64,000 nt of DNA. Origin: Microbacterium esteraromaticum. GTDB lineage: Bacteria; Actinomycetota; Actinomycetes; Actinomycetales; Microbacteriaceae. Each line of letters begins with the position of its first letter. The stretch's first letter is position 1. The translations under genes and the position numbers were made by a program. Under the pieces are notes generated by a model that searched no databases, had not been told where the DNA came from, and saw nothing but the letters and a program-made list of their open reading frames with translations. The stretch covers positions 1,240,001 to 1,304,000 of the forward strand of contig NZ_CP043732.1 in NCBI RefSeq assembly GCF_014084045.1, read 5' to 3'. Below are positions 1,835 to 49,994 of this stretch, in pieces.

Positions 1835-3364
1835 GTGACGTCCCTCTGGCTCGACGACCAGCGTGAGCGCATCGCCTCCGACACCTTCGAACCGGGCGCG
1901 CGGTACGACGCCGTGGTCGCCGGGGCCGGCATCACAGGACTCACCACGGCGCTTCTGCTCGCCCGCGCAGGCCTCTCGGTGGCCGTGCTCGAGGCGCGTT
2001 TCGTGGGTGCCGTGTCGACGGGTCACACGACCGCGAAGCTGAGCCTGCTGCAGGGCACCGTGCTCTCGGGCATCCTGTCCCGCGGGTCGAGCCATGTGCT
2101 CAAGGCGTACGTCGAGGGCAACCGCGAGGGTCAGGCGTGGCTGCTGCGCTACCTCGACGAGCACGGCGTCGAGGTGCAGCGACGCGACGCGTTCACCTAC
2201 GCCTCGACGCCGGACGGCGTGAAGAGGCTGGATGCCGAGTACGAGGCGTGCCGCAAGGCCGGTCTCGATGTCGAGCGCCTGCACACCCTCGACCTGCCGT
2301 TCGAGACGCACGGCGGCCTGCGCCTGCGCGACCAGGCCCAGTTCCAGCCGATGGACGTGCTGGCCGCGCTCGCCGCCGATCTGCGCGAGCGCGGTGGCGT
2401 GATCATCGAGGGCGCCAGGGTGAAAGACGTCGAGACGGGTGAGCCGAGCAAGGTCACCACCTCGCTCGGGGACGTGCGGGCGGGCACGGTGGTGCTGGCC
2501 ACGGGCATCCCGATCCTCGATCGCGGTCTGTACTTCGCCAAGGTGAAGCCGCTGCGCTCATATGCGCAGGCGTACCGGGTGCCGGGGCAGCTGCCCCAGG
2601 GGATGTACCTCTCGATCGATTCGCCGAGCCGGTCGCTGCGCACGGCGCCGACCGGACAGGAGGAGCTGCTGGTGGTCGGCGGCAACGGCCACGTCGTCGG
2701 CAGGGAGGACGACACGCAGCGTCTCGTCGACGACCTGGAGCAGTGGACGAAGAAGCACTTCCCGGGTGCTGAGCGCACCCACGCCTGGTCGGCGCAGGAC
2801 TACCGGTCGATGAACCTCGTGCCGTTCGTCGGGTGGATGCCCCGCACGGGCAAGCACGTGACACTCGCGACCGGCTACAACAAGTGGGGCATGACCAACG
2901 GGGTCGCCGCGGCACTGAGCATGACCGCCGACATCCTCGACGGGAACATCTCGTGGGCGAAGACGCTGCATCACCGCGTCACGCTGCCGAAGGACGTCGC
3001 GAACAGTGTCGTCGCGAACGCTCAGGTGGCTGGCGAGCTGGCATCGGGGTGGGTCGGAAGTCTGCACCCGCTGCCCGACGAGCCTCCGGGCGAGGGCGAG
3101 GGCGTGGTCGGCGCGGAGGACAAGGAGCCCGCCGCGGTCTCGACCGTCGACGGGGTCACATGCAGGATGTCGGCGGTCTGCACGCACCTGGGCGGCATCG
3201 TGTCGTGGAACAGTGCAGAGCGCTCGTGGGACTGCCCGCTGCACGGTTCTCGCTTCGCCGCCGACGGCACTCTGCTGGAAGGCCCTGCGGTCGAGGACCT
3301 CAAGCCCATCGATGAGCCAGAGCTGCCCGGCGACGAGCACGTGCCCGTGGAGGAGCTGCCGTAG
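1835..3364 (+). CDS. FAD-dependent oxidoreductase with C-terminal Rieske [2Fe-2S] domain
   Basis: A 509-residue protein. The start is set at GTG 1835 because GAAGGAG lies just upstream and the FAD loop then falls near the N-terminus. AVVAGAGITGLTTALLLARAGLSVAVLEA is the Rossmann dinucleotide fold of the DAO superfamily. The C-terminal Rieske domain keeps all four cluster ligands: Cys449-x-His451 and Cys467-x2-His470. DAO-Rieske fusions are known in actinobacteria and bacilli, usually without a defined substrate. I infer an amine or amino-acid oxidase-like redox enzyme passing electrons through the iron-sulfur centre. A G-rich tandem repeat follows directly after the stop. Confidence 0.85.
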   Translation: MTSLWLDDQRERIASDTFEPGARYDAVVAGAGITGLTTALLLARAGLSVAVLEARFVGAVSTGHTTAKLSLLQGTVLSGILSRGSSHVLKAYVEGNREGQAWLLRYLDEHGVEVQRRDAFTYASTPDGVKRLDAEYEACRKAGLDVERLHTLDLPFETHGGLRLRDQAQFQPMDVLAALAADLRERGGVIIEGARVKDVETGEPSKVTTSLGDVRAGTVVLATGIPILDRGLYFAKVKPLRSYAQAYRVPGQLPQGMYLSIDSPSRSLRTAPTGQEELLVVGGNGHVVGREDDTQRLVDDLEQWTKKHFPGAERTHAWSAQDYRSMNLVPFVGWMPRTGKHVTLATGYNKWGMTNGVAAALSMTADILDGNISWAKTLHHRVTLPKDVANSVVANAQVAGELASGWVGSLHPLPDEPPGEGEGVVGAEDKEPAAVSTVDGVTCRMSAVCTHLGGIVSWNSAERSWDCPLHGSRFAADGTLLEGPAVEDLKPIDEPELPGDEHVPVEELP

Positions 3365-3383
3365 GTCGATCGCGTGGTTTTCC

Positions 3384-3419
3384 GGGGGTGTTCGGGGGTT
3401 GTCCGGGAGTGTTTGGGGG
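3384..3419 (+). repeat. Potential G-quadruplex in two 21-bp tandem repeats
   Basis: Four G tracts (5, 5, 3 and 5 G at 3384, 3394, 3405 and 3415) are separated by loops of 5, 6 and 7 bases. This meets the usual G3+N1-7 rule on the plus strand. The underlying structure is two diverged copies of a 21-bp unit, 20 bases after the Rieske-FAD stop, so it could act in termination or mRNA stability. Confidence 0.6.
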
Positions 3420-3450
3420 TTGTCCGTCGCTGTCGGCCGCCCCGACGCCC

Positions 3451-3525
3451 GAGATCCGGCAGGTGCGCCGGGATCCGGATGCCTGCGGCCAAAGTGTCCG
3501 GATCTGGGTCGGTCTGCCGGATTTC
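3451..3525. repeat. 75-bp nested palindrome, copy A
   Basis: Outer arms are GAGATCCGGCA and TGCCGGATTTC. Inner arms are GATCCGGATGC and a diverged GTGTCCGGATC around an 11-base loop. Member of a nine-copy family in this window. Confidence 0.9.
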
Positions 3526-3598
3526 AGGGCGGTGACGGCGGCACCGGTGCGCCTCGTGGTCCCATGGTGCGGCGACTGCGAGCAAGCGCCGGGCGCCT

Positions 3599-3673
3599 GA
3601 GATCCGGCAGGTGTGCCGGAATCCGGATGCCTGTGGTCGAAGCATCCGGATCTGGGTCAGTCTGCCGGATTTC
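3599..3673. repeat. 75-bp nested palindrome, copy B
   Basis: Same architecture as the other copies, with inner arms ATCCGGATGC and GCATCCGGAT perfect and the 11-base loop CTGTGGTCGAA. It starts 148 bp after copy A. Confidence 0.9.
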
Positions 3674-3746
3674 GGGGCCGTGACGGCGGCACGAGTGCGC
3701 CTCGTGGTCCGGCGGTGCGGCGACTGCGAGCAAGCGCCGGGCGCCT

Positions 3747-3821
3747 GAGATCCGGCAGGTGCGCTGAGATCCGGATGCCTGTGGTCGAAGCATCCGGATC
3801 TGGGTCGGTCTGCCGGATCTC
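3747..3821. repeat. 75-bp nested palindrome, copy C
   Basis: Closest to a consensus: outer arms GAGATCCGGCA/TGCCGGATCTC and inner arms GATCCGGATGC/GCATCCGGATC are both perfect. It starts 148 bp after copy B. Confidence 0.9.
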
Positions 3822-3919
3822 AGGGCGGTGGCGGCAGCCAGGTCACGCGTCGGCGAGTCCGTTCACCGGGCGCCTCGTAGCCCGGCGGTGAGGCGACCGA
3901 CCGCGAGCGCCGGGCGTCT

Positions 3920-3994
3920 GAGATCCGGAAAGTGTGCCCAGATCCGGATGCCTGTGGCCGAAGCATCCGGATCTCGGGCGGGCGGCCGGATCTC
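3920..3994. repeat. 75-bp nested palindrome, copy D
   Basis: The inner palindrome is intact and the outer arms have changed (GAGATCCGGAA and GGCCGGATCTC). It ends about 50 bp before the stop of the tetR gene. Confidence 0.88.
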
Positions 3995-4045
3995 GGCGAC
4001 CGGATGCCCGTACGCGGCTGACCCGATGCCGCGAGCGGCGTCGGG

Positions 4046-4636
4046 TCAGCGGTTCCCCGCCAGTTCATCCAGGTGTCGCCCGAGGGTCTCCAGCATCTGC
4101 TCGGCGGCCTGCGGATGCCCTCTCCAGAGCCCGTGCATCGCGATGCCGTCGATCAGCGCACGCAGTCGTCTGGCCTCGTAGGCGGGATCGCGCCGCTGGC
4201 CGAGCCGCCCCGCGGCGGCGAGGATCTCGATGGCGGCAGCGCATGCCCTGTCGACGGCGGCGCTCAGGGCGATGGCGGCGGGTCGCAGCTCATCGTCGGT
4301 GAGGGCGAGCACGCCGAGCTGAACCTGGGCGAGCAGCTCCGCGCGCCGAACGGCATCGAGGGGCAGAAGCTGCGCGAGCAGGGCGTCGGCCAGTGGCCGG
4401 CCGGTGACGTCGAGTGCCAGGATTCTGCTCGTGACGCGCTGTTCGATGAGTTCGAGACAGTAGACGCGCAGCGCATGCTGGGTGGGGAACGCGCGCCGCA
4501 GCGACGCGGCGGCGATGCCCGCCTCGGCCGCGACACCGCGCACCGAGAGCCCGGCGAGTCCGTCGCGCTCGAGCACGCGCACGGCGGCGGCGGCGATCTG
4601 CTCGGTGCGCTCGTCGGCGTCGATTCTTCGCGGCAT
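4046..4636 (-). CDS. TetR/AcrR-family transcriptional regulator
   Basis: A 196-residue protein. The start MPRRIDADERTEQI at 4636 is chosen because it gives the usual TetR N-terminus and lies 2 bases after the stop of the upstream membrane gene. Residues 9-55 form the helix-turn-helix (VLERDGLAGLSVRGVAAEAGIAAASLRRAF), with the rest an all-helical ligand/dimer domain ending in a TetR_C-like IDGIAMHGLW segment. Co-transcription with the small membrane protein upstream, and the AGTAC-N4-GTACT palindrome ahead of that gene, suggest local autoregulation. The ligand is unknown. Confidence 0.88.
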   Translation of the reverse strand: MPRRIDADERTEQIAAAAVRVLERDGLAGLSVRGVAAEAGIAAASLRRAFPTQHALRVYCLELIEQRVTSRILALDVTGRPLADALLAQLLPLDAVRRAELLAQVQLGVLALTDDELRPAAIALSAAVDRACAAAIEILAAAGRLGQRRDPAYEARRLRALIDGIAMHGLWRGHPQAAEQMLETLGRHLDELAGNR

Positions 4637-4638
4637 GG

Positions 4639-5196
4639 TCAGGATTCTGGCACGACGCTCGCGGGGGGAGCGGATGCCGGCTTCGGCCACACCGTGTAGC
4701 TGAGGGCCCAGATGAGGTCGATGGCGAGAATGATCCCGAGCGTGCCGAAACAGTTCGAGAGGGCTGCCGTGCGCTCCGCATCGCCGACGAGCAGGATGAT
4801 CGCACCGAGGATCGCGGCGGCGATGCTCATCGCGATGCCGGTGAGCAGGGCGTCGCGCCAGCATTTCGTCGTGTAGCGGGCGCCGGTGAGGCGCTCGGGT
4901 GCGGGTCCACCGGCGAATCGGTGACGGAACCGGGTGTCGGCCCAGGCGATCATGCGCTTTCCGTAGGCGACCGAGACGCCGATGTAGATCGCCGCGAGTC
5001 CGTGCTGCCATGAGGCGGTGCCGCCGCCCAGCAGATCGATCGCGACGAGCGCGAGCAGGATCACGTCGATCACAGGAGCGAGAACGAGAAGTGCGGCGCC
5101 GAGGCCGGGTCGCCGTAGCAGGTACCGCGTGGCGAGTCCCGCGACGATCGCCACCCAGAATGCCACCTCGCAGATCACGATCGCCGTCAGGATCAT
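4639..5196 (-). CDS. Small polytopic membrane protein of unknown function
   Basis: A 185-residue protein with about five hydrophobic helices and a basic loop after helix 3 (GKRMIAWADTRFRHRF). The start at ATG 5196 is supported by GGGGAGG six bases upstream. It is the first gene of a two-gene operon with the TetR regulator, the usual arrangement for a regulator controlling a membrane protein. The layout is reminiscent of the YmcC-type hypothetical proteins of bacilli, but I cannot confirm that. No transporter motif is visible, so function is left open. Confidence 0.75.
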   Translation of the reverse strand: MILTAIVICEVAFWVAIVAGLATRYLLRRPGLGAALLVLAPVIDVILLALVAIDLLGGGTASWQHGLAAIYIGVSVAYGKRMIAWADTRFRHRFAGGPAPERLTGARYTTKCWRDALLTGIAMSIAAAILGAIILLVGDAERTAALSNCFGTLGIILAIDLIWALSYTVWPKPASAPPASVVPES

Positions 5197-5215
5197 GGCG
5201 CCTCCCCCGTTTGTT

Positions 5216-5229
5216 AGTACGAGTGTACT
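5216..5229. promoter_or_regulatory. Candidate TetR operator AGTAC-GAGT-GTACT
   Basis: A perfect 5-bp-arm palindrome with a 4-base centre, 20 bp upstream of the membrane-protein start. It lies in the only AT-richer stretch nearby and is followed at 4636 by a tetR gene in the same operon. Assignment is by position and symmetry only. Confidence 0.5.
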
Positions 5230-5295
5230 CAAACGCGGCGTCATGGAACAGATTCGATGGAATGTCGGTGCTCCGGCAGCCTCTCCCGGGCGCCC

Positions 5296-5370
5296 GAGAT
5301 CCGGCAGGTGTGCCGAGGTCCGGATGCCTGTGGCTGAAGCATCCGGATGTGGGTCGGTCCTCCGGATCTG
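5296..5370. repeat. 75-bp nested palindrome, copy E
   Basis: Inner arms TCCGGATGC/GCATCCGGA are intact, the loop is CTGTGGCTGAA, and the right outer arm is CTCCGGATCTG. First of a second, 99-bp-periodic cluster. Confidence 0.88.
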
Positions 5371-5394
5371 GGGGCGTTGCCGGACCGGGCGACC

Positions 5395-5469
5395 GAGGTC
5401 CGGCGGGCCCTCCGAGATCCGGATGCCTGTGGCTGAAGCATCCGGATGTGGGGCGGTCCTCCGGATCTG
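5395..5469. repeat. 75-bp nested palindrome, copy F
   Basis: Shares the CTGTGGCTGAA loop and the right half with copy E, marking E and F as the closest pair. Confidence 0.88.
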
Positions 5470-5493
5470 GGGGAGGCGCTGGACCGGGCGCCC

Positions 5494-5568
5494 GAGATCC
5501 GGCGGGTCTGCCGAGATCCGGATGCCTGTGGTCAACGCATCCGGATCCGGGTCGGTCTGCCGGATTTC
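5494..5568. repeat. 75-bp nested palindrome, copy G
   Basis: Loop CTGTGGTCAAC. Right outer arm TGCCGGATTTC, as in copies A and B. Confidence 0.88.
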
Positions 5569-5592
5569 AGGGCGGCGCCGGGCCGGGCGCCC

Positions 5593-5667
5593 GGGATCCG
5601 GCAGGTCTGCCGACATCCGGATGCCCGTGGTCGAAGCATCCGCATCTCGGGCGGTCCGCCGGGTCTC
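5593..5667. repeat. 75-bp nested palindrome, copy H
   Basis: The most diverged member of this cluster, with an inner right arm GCATCCGCATC. It ends 27 bp before the stop of the following minus-strand gene. Confidence 0.85.
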
Positions 5668-5694
5668 GGGCACCGAATGGCGGACAGCTGCGGG

Positions 5695-6852
5695 TCAGAA
5701 CCCCGGGTACTCCTGCAGCCGCTGCTCGAACTCGGCGCGGTCGCCCTCGGGGAGCACGCGGCGGGCGAAGACCACGAGCTGGATGCCCTCGAGGGGCTCC
5801 CCGGTCTGCTTCGCGAGCGCTTCGCGCTGGGTGCGGAACTCTCCGGTCGGGTCGTTCGACAGGTCATAGGCGTACGCATAGAAGCGCAGCGGGCCGGGAT
5901 AGGTGCCGCTGTAGTACTCCCAGGTGTGCTGTCGTGACGGCTCGGTCGACCCGTACAGCTTCGCGACCATGTCGGGAGAGATGCCCGCATCCACCTCGTT
6001 CAGCGGATAGAGCTCGCTCATGGCGCGTTCGAGAAGCACTTCGTCGATCGTCTGCATGACCTCGCGCTTGCGATCGTCGTCCTGCACCGGCTGCGCGGTC
6101 GTCCACGTGGTGGACGTGTACCTGCGCAGCATCGACTCGCCACCGTATCCGTTGCGCTCGGGGCTCACGTCCTGCGAGCCGCTCTGCACCCAGGTGTAGC
6201 CGAAGCGCTGGCTGACGCGCTCGCGGACGGCGGCCATCAGCGCGTCGCCCTCGGACTGCACGCCTTCCAGCGAGGGCCCGGCCAGGGCATCCTGAGGCGA
6301 GAAGTCCTTCACGCCCGGGTACGCCTCCTCGTGCCGCTGCCGCTCCGACTTCGTGCCGTCGTACGCCTGCGTCGCCGCCGACCGCAGGGCTCCCATCGCA
6401 CCGACGGTCGCGACGTTGAAGACGAGCGAGACGGCGAGGGCGATCGCGCCGAGCATCCGGCCGCGAGCGGTGAGCATCGCCGCCACGATCAGCCCGGCGA
6501 TCGTCAGCTGCAGCACGAGCATCGTCACGCCGTAGACGGCATCGGTGCCGCCGGCGAGCATGAGCAGCAGCAGGATCAGCGCGAAGATCGCCGTCGCCGA
6601 GATGGCGGCCAGGCCCAGCGCGTTGACGCCCTTCCTCTCACCGCCGTCGTCCGGTGCGGTGTAGGTGATTCCGGATGCCTGGGGCAGGCCGGCCGCGGCA
6701 TCCAGCCCTCCTCGCGTGCGGGCGGCACCCGCGTAGCCACCGGGCGGGGGAGCGGCGGGGCGCCCTCCGCCCCGCCGACGTATCTGCTGCGCTGACGATC
6801 TACCACGGCTTGTCCGTTCCGCCGCCGCCTGAACCGTCGTCGCCCTGGCCAC
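5695..6852 (-). CDS. Membrane protein with Pro/Gly-rich N-terminus and C-terminal soluble domain
   Basis: A 385-residue protein at the end of the MoxR-VWA operon. The only plausible start is GTG 6852, which overlaps the preceding gene by 53 bases; I see no ATG or GTG closer to the membrane domain. Residues 1-75 are Ala/Arg/Pro/Gly-rich. About three hydrophobic helices follow (AISATAIFALILLLLMLAGG, VLQLTIAGLIVAAML, MLGAIALAVSLVFNVATVG), then about 220 soluble residues with no recognised motif. The N-terminal half resembles DUF4190-type proteins. Function unknown; its position suggests an envelope role linked to the MoxR system. Confidence 0.65.
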   Translation of the reverse strand: MARATTVQAAAERTSRGRSSAQQIRRRGGGRPAAPPPGGYAGAARTRGGLDAAAGLPQASGITYTAPDDGGERKGVNALGLAAISATAIFALILLLLMLAGGTDAVYGVTMLVLQLTIAGLIVAAMLTARGRMLGAIALAVSLVFNVATVGAMGALRSAATQAYDGTKSERQRHEEAYPGVKDFSPQDALAGPSLEGVQSEGDALMAAVRERVSQRFGYTWVQSGSQDVSPERNGYGGESMLRRYTSTTWTTAQPVQDDDRKREVMQTIDEVLLERAMSELYPLNEVDAGISPDMVAKLYGSTEPSRQHTWEYYSGTYPGPLRFYAYAYDLSNDPTGEFRTQREALAKQTGEPLEGIQLVVFARRVLPEGDRAEFEQRLQEYPGF

Positions 6853-37194: not shown

Positions 37195-37275
37195 CACAGA
37201 TGTCGGCGCGATGCACGGATGTCGGTCGATCCTGCCGAATCCGGCCGACGGGCGTGAGATCCGCCGACATCTGTG
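37195..37275 (+). terminator. Long-loop inverted repeat after purA
   Basis: Perfect 14-bp arms CACAGATGTCGGCG (37195-37208) and CGCCGACATCTGTG (37262-37275). The intervening 53 bases contain a smaller GTCGG/CCGAC pair. The nested form recalls the 75-bp repeats but the sequence is different. Confidence 0.65.
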
Positions 37276-49919: not shown

Positions 49920-49994
49920 GGAATCCGGCAAGTCTGCCGGGATCCGGATGCTTGTGGCTCGGACGTCCGGATCTGGGGTGGTCTGCCGGATCTG
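49920..49994. repeat. 75-bp nested palindrome, copy I (isolated)
   Basis: The same 75-bp length and design as copies A-H, some 44 kb away. The inner left arm GATCCGGATGC is kept while the right arm is GACGTCCGGATC, and the right outer arm is TGCCGGATCTG. It lies between convergent deoR and lrp genes. Confidence 0.85.

Follow-up and report, generated by a model that had tools for sequence, protein, structure and literature searches.

What kind of element are the four palindromes that lie close together in one intergenic region of Microbacterium esteraromaticum, and which enzyme could have spread them? The region occupies positions 3451 to 3994 of the 64,000-nucleotide stretch analysed here (the window, 1240001-1304000 of the 3.37-Mb contig of the source genome, G000). 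The window's element, named the TCCGGA family after its box, also flanks a DUF559 gene at G000:C1:2627085-2627915, and the arrays in the window are solo copies of the family to which that gene belongs. Genes of this type are associated with such elements, the elements on the two flanks of a gene have a box and a spacing in common, and three gene/repeat families of this kind occur in the one genome. The frequent presence, in this genus, of palindromes that flank small nuclease-like genes and are matched in sequence and spacing suggests a short mobile DNA, similar to the repetitive extragenic palindromes (REPs), that uses an unexpected enzyme.

Architecture and copies of the element

A pattern search and a family alignment both recover the four 75-bp copies reported in an earlier note on this sequence. 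Their start-to-start distances are 148, 148 and 173, and the 148-bp tandem unit with common linkers proposed for copies A to C is confirmed. The nested arms described for them (outer GAGATCCGGCA/TGCCGGATCTC, inner GATCCGGATGC/GCATCCGGATC, around an 11-base loop) are exact in the copy that starts at 3747, and the other three carry substitutions. Because the outer and inner arms are one word, the element consists of four boxes, one pair direct and one pair inverted, and not merely of two nested stems: the box GAGATCCGG occurs four times in the order →→←←, with a 19-bp step in either half. With up to three mismatches allowed, the pattern of the 5' half matches the window 17 times (both halves counted), compared with 0.01 expected. 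The nine copies counted earlier are all present, as array 1, a second array with a 99-bp period and a single copy; the E-values given below come from a model, R1, made from 27 copies that include these nine and therefore match by construction.

3451..3525, plus strand: four-box element of the TCCGGA family, array 1 copy A (R1 E=3.4e-21)
3599..3673, plus strand: four-box element, array 1 copy B (R1 E=1.8e-21)
3747..3821, plus strand: four-box element, array 1 copy C (R1 E=6.4e-23), with boxes at 3747-3755, 3766-3774, 3794-3802 and 3813-3821
3920..3994, plus strand: four-box element, array 1 copy D (R1 E=8.1e-22)
5296..5370, plus strand: four-box element, array 2 copy 1
5395..5469, plus strand: four-box element, array 2 copy 2
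5494..5568, plus strand: four-box element, array 2 copy 3
5593..5667, plus strand: four-box element, array 2 copy 4
49920..49994, plus strand: single dispersed four-box element of the TCCGGA family

Further copies, as the earlier note had anticipated, occur both elsewhere in the genome and in relatives. In G000 the sequence-only R1 model finds 35 copies in 9 clusters (strands merged, best E<1e-6), located at 660.6 (5 copies), 901.3 (4), 903.3-904.1 (4), 1243.4 (4), 1245.3 (4), 1289.9 (1), 1487.8 (7), 2626.8 (3) and 2628.0 kb (3). Matches at E<=1e-4 are found in 48 of 295 genomes of the genus, under stricter filters and with 15 candidates scored per genome. Read by eye, the copies in relatives keep the four boxes and their spacing, and the core differs in all or nearly all boxes together, giving ATCCGGA, ATCAGGA, AATCGGA, ATGCGGA, ATTCGGA or AACAGGA. 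This one-box rule has exceptions, such as L092, in which the outer boxes are unlike the inner ones.

A nuclease-like gene between copies of the element

The DUF559 gene that carries the window's element lies between two ordinary genes, in the PFK/S9 interval, and is one of six DUF559-type genes in G000 (E<=0.01). Its closest named loci are mostly from Microbacterium; the phage records searched gave no match and the plasmid records searched gave one distant match, in Tsukamurella. All 19 aligned members match both Pfam DUF559 (PF04480) and MTES_1575 REase (PF18741) at E<=0.01, and 8 of them match AbiEi_4. Among PADLOC models, those for AbiEi match up to 10 of the 19 and one for a homing endonuclease matches 5, and NCBIfam returned no family for any member.

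The protein is predicted to have two halves, one AbiEi-like and the other Vsr/homing-endonuclease-like. In the structural model, the N-terminal half adopts an AbiEi fold that matches PDB 6y8q, and the C-terminal half adopts a Vsr-like fold whose closest relative is the homing endonuclease I-Bth0305I (PDB 3r3p). Residues E180, D206, H223 and D232 are invariant in all 19 rows of alignment A2; in the 31 rows of alignment A3 the latter three remain invariant and E180 is present in at least 90%. By our own assignment, these four would represent the E..D..x..H..D residues of EDxHD nucleases. A collagen fusion (6mpx) also came up among the solved structures and was taken as a chance match. No second gene that could encode an AbiEii/DUF1814 toxin partner is evident in the list of open reading frames of the PFK/S9 interval, no DUF1814 search having been made.

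Among relatives, some PFK/S9 intergenic sites are empty and others are occupied (30 loci surveyed minus L118, L120, L130, L132 and L133, L104 being read from L033 and L116 positioned from the coordinates of its genes). In G045, G048 and G090 (L110 78-1471, L109 125-1498 and L127 38-1492, respectively) the same site holds another type of protein, Vsr-like by eye and, in L109 and L110, about 330 aa long. The palindrome on its flanks is a different one, containing words such as GTCACAGAA, and the two may represent a further gene/repeat system. The 6-phosphofructokinase gene itself seems to be split by a frameshift into two frames (L033 3734-4761; G000:C1:2625733-2626760), through either a sequencing error or a real change.

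Association of genes and elements

The association was measured with a detector that scores four matching 9-mers in the four-box layout, with a cut-off of 32 set after a first look at the data. At 80 named loci this score is reached by 71/157 windows near the gene, but by only 1/155 distant windows and 1/314 shuffles; at a score of at least 31 the counts are 102/157, 5/155 and 10/314, and the distant control windows are often coding. For 35 genes of the genus the counts at 32 or above are 33/70 adjacent windows, 0/70 distant windows and 0/350 shuffles, although these two sets are not independent because they have genomes in common. As a further control, the flanks of the unrelated FAD/Rieske gene at 16 loci gave 1 hit in 32, which is a true element in G091.

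The elements on the two sides of a gene also resemble each other. Box similarity between the flanks of one gene averages 0.612, compared with 0.449 (sd 0.011) for permuted partners, at 53 loci where both flanks score at least 30, and a second set of 26 loci gave 0.637 as opposed to 0.486 (0/2000 permutations). The step is likewise shared: both flanks have the same one, 18 or 19 bp, at 19 of 24 loci with both flanks at 32 or above (permuted mean 9.7, 1/5000), and among 53 elements scoring at least 33 the two halves are (18,18) in 26 and (19,19) in 22, though steps of 14-26 were allowed. Divergence of the boxes correlates with that of the protein (Mantel r=0.446, 0/2000, n=59). The 5' element ends a median of 123 bp ahead of the start of the protein match (54 flanks), and the median distance from the end of the match to the 3' element is 33.5 bp (50 flanks); a whole element scoring at least 32 stands on both sides of the gene at 24 of the 80 loci.

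A model with one family per gene predicts solo copies for the other DUF559 genes in G000 as well, and this prediction was checked. For three of the six genes, copies of the gene's own element were found dispersed in the genome; the other three, which have no score-32 element nearby, lay outside the search. The element of the gene at 2028244-2029044, with the box TGTCGG, occurs at 16 further places (E<=0.001), 15 of which were fetched and aligned, and four weaker matches, one of which carries an indel, also align to the four-box layout. The element of the gene at 2063373-2064191, with the box AACAGG, occurs at 5 full places and 2 partial, doubtful ones. TGTCGG copies are dispersed mostly singly, one of them in the window, and they are sharp-ended, with flank information dropping towards background within about 4 bases. 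No target-site duplication was found at 18 of these copies, since repeats of 2-6, 8 and 9 bp were none of them clearly above permutation (lowest 26/200, at 3 bp).

37197..37273, minus strand: single dispersed four-box element outside the TCCGGA family (box TGTCGG; gene G000:C1:2028244-2029044)

Hairpin or protein site

Folding of 11 sequences (seven of the nine window copies, two copies located outside the window and two minus-strand sequences) gave z from -4.66 to -8.35. The earlier statement that most changes in the arms preserve pairing does not hold for the TCCGGA family, in which 84.9% of stem cells are paired compared with 87.5% after shuffling, and 500 of 500 shuffles were at least as high. 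Changed boxes match their stem partner no better than under permutation, and the covariation term from RNAalifold is only -0.36. For the TGTCGG family a test confined to the boxes was also negative; the wider stem exhibits a weak compensation, with double changes in excess of the shuffles (11 pairs, 11/500; score 2/500; cells paired 32/500), and 12 of 22 double changes fall in the four pairs adjoining the loop. A4, the alignment used for the wider stem, comprises 19 rows, every one of the 20 in the box test except L321, and the box test itself omits L320 because of its indel. Based on the pairing tests of the two families, recognition of the boxes by a protein is favoured, and there may also be a hairpin stage.

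Among the stem cells of the TCCGGA family that are not Watson-Crick pairs, G-U is commoner than A-C on the plus strand of the element. This excess may mean nothing, because the orientation is inherited.

Genomic context and local history

Array 1 lies between the FAD/Rieske gene and a TetR gene, which converge on it, and two genes separate it from array 2.

4046..5196, minus strand: TetR-type regulator and small membrane-type protein (no Pfam match), between arrays 1 and 2

In G091 the FAD gene is followed by one element and then, by eye, by the gene that comes after array 2 in the window, with no TetR or membrane genes in between. G051 has the same next gene as the window together with a remnant of an element, G107 has that gene and no element, and G084 has other genes with no element detected. 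From this comparison, the two arrays and the two intervening genes were either gained in the window or lost from the relatives.

In G000, 26 copies, each solo or partial, were classified with a home-made gene caller as 10 convergent, 9 co-directional, 2 divergent, 4 intragenic and 1 unclassed; for comparison, which was made without a significance test, the window's intergenic gaps of at least 60 bp include 6 convergent, 8 co-directional and 8 divergent. Four arrays outside the window (L031, L032, L064) lie next to genes for MFS/POT transporters or MarR regulators, which may be chance. The TetR and membrane-type genes, like an MFS transporter gene at L031 3726-5168, stand between two arrays, as if arrays gather or bracket passengers. 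Just before array 1, at 3376-3417, the word GGTTTTCCGGGGGTGTTCGGG and two variants of it form short, degenerate direct repeats. A search of window positions 3300-5800 against Rfam gave nothing above the gathering score and only 3 sub-threshold miRNA matches.

Relation to known systems

The likeness to REPs and to bacterial interspersed mosaic elements (BIMEs) suggested in the earlier note stands in part. Intergenic palindromes, arrays, copies in the genome and in relatives, and sequences that vary from one species to another are all present. The REP-associated tyrosine transposase (RAYT), whose presence was to be checked, is the part that fails: Y1_Tnp (PF01797) has no match in G000 at E<=1, and 10 of 14 control genomes match it, 6 of them over the cut-off. 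A GT[AG]G foot (GTAG or GTGG) is likewise absent from both ends of the 27-copy consensus.

Available excerpts of PMC6006769, PMC3733652 and PMC3116915 describe REPtrons, in which REP or REPIN sequences occur with a RAYT (TnpA-REP), and HUH tyrosine transposases as the REP-linked enzymes; for CGTC REPs, according to PMC3733652, no transposase is known. The system described here resembles a REPtron in having a chromosomal gene flanked by palindromes, its own repeat family for each gene, several families per genome, and solo copies and arrays dispersed between genes. It differs in the enzyme, which is AbiEi-like and Vsr-like in place of a HUH Y1 transposase, and in an element that lacks the GT[AG]G foot and whose four direct and inverted boxes are set at a step of 18 or 19 bp.

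The predicted C-terminal half has the fold and the putative E..D..x..H..D residues of I-Bth0305I (3r3p) and the Vsr endonuclease (1cw0). Unlike these, the protein has an N-terminal AbiEi-like half, and its gene lies between ordinary genes in G000 and, where elements were detected, between whole palindromes. The modelled N-terminal half is similar to the AbiEi antitoxin and to Rv2827c, which according to parts of PMC7319586 bind two and four inverted repeats, respectively, and thereby repress their own operons; here, in contrast, it is joined to a nuclease-like half, and copies of the element are scattered across the genome. PMC3710099 terms the founding MTES_1575 domain a Vsr REase. Although every one of the aligned members matches DUF559 and MTES_1575 REase, the pairing with four-box elements was seen here only in Microbacteriaceae. 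No published link between DUF559 and palindromic repeats was found in searches of one open-access library (subscription papers were not covered).

Origin of the elements

These observations are probably explained by a REPtron-like system in which an AbiEi-Vsr nuclease takes the place of the HUH transposase. The element would be a short unit, mobile now or formerly, of four 8-9 bp boxes (→→←←) with a fixed step of 18 or 19 bp in each half, and a single-copy chromosomal gene would be flanked by copies of it on either side. The AbiEi-like half may recognise the boxes, probably with one protein per box, and the nuclease half may nick or cut the DNA held in the resulting complex. Repair could then copy the element into intergenic sites or enlarge it into tandem arrays. 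A wider proposal is evenly poised between true and false: that such palindromes form a new, minimal kind of mobile DNA, spread in trans by single-copy AbiEi-Vsr nucleases independently of REP/RAYT, with many parallel families whose box and 18-/19-bp period have diversified across Microbacterium.

Several points limit the REPtron-like explanation. Common ancestry alone can produce the correlation between box and protein, and 86 of the 157 near windows at the 80 named loci fall below the cut-off. In a wider sample (28 of the 30 loci L275-L304, own locus and G091 left out, of which 3 near contig ends were dropped, leaving 25), the 18 usable loci outside Microbacteriaceae gave 0/36 near and 2/36 far windows, and the 7 loci of the same genus or family gave only 2/14 near windows. 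Thus, even close homologues do not all show the link between gene and element.

The boxes could instead be operators, the DUF559 protein being a transcription regulator that controls its own gene through the flanking elements and a regulon through the dispersed copies. The self-repression of AbiEi and Rv2827c through inverted repeats (PMC7319586, in part) and the position of the 5' element ahead of the match agree with this, but an element also lies just past the end of the match, few copies are divergent (2 of 26), which is a poor fit, and sharp ends with unrelated flanks and tandem arrays are not operator-like; this explanation is therefore unlikely. A little less credible is a homing-type parasite, for which the palindromes would be the pre-existing target of the nuclease gene and not its product. 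The closeness of the C-terminal fold to I-Bth0305I and the existence of both empty and occupied PFK/S9 sites would fit such a parasite. A homing gene splits its own target, however, leaving a half site on each flank, whereas no target splitting is seen here: whole elements stand on both sides at those 24 loci, match the gene's other flank and diverge together with the protein.

The element might also be kept for its own sake as an RNA or DNA hairpin, for example as a bidirectional terminator or mRNA stabiliser at gene ends. Strong folding, frequent convergent positions and the weak compensation in the TGTCGG family speak for this, but the lack of compensation in the TCCGGA family and its low covariation term speak against it, and hairpins leave both the identity of inner and outer boxes and the tie to the gene unexplained, making this improbable. 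Finally, classical REPs or BIMEs moved by a RAYT, or miniature inverted-repeat transposable elements (MITEs) of a DDE transposon, would likewise be palindromic, intergenic, dispersed and clustered. The absence of Y1_Tnp matches and of GTAG/GTGG at the consensus ends argues against the former, and the lack of target-site duplication in the TGTCGG family against the latter, for which no DDE transposase search was made; this last alternative is highly improbable.

Implications

If the REPtron-like explanation is true, the lifestyle of a gene with its own repeats arose more than once, with a second and unrelated enzyme, and DUF559, which is listed in Pfam as being of unknown function, would acquire a testable role. 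The natural pairs of nuclease and box, at least three of them in one genome, would make the specificity of binding directly testable.
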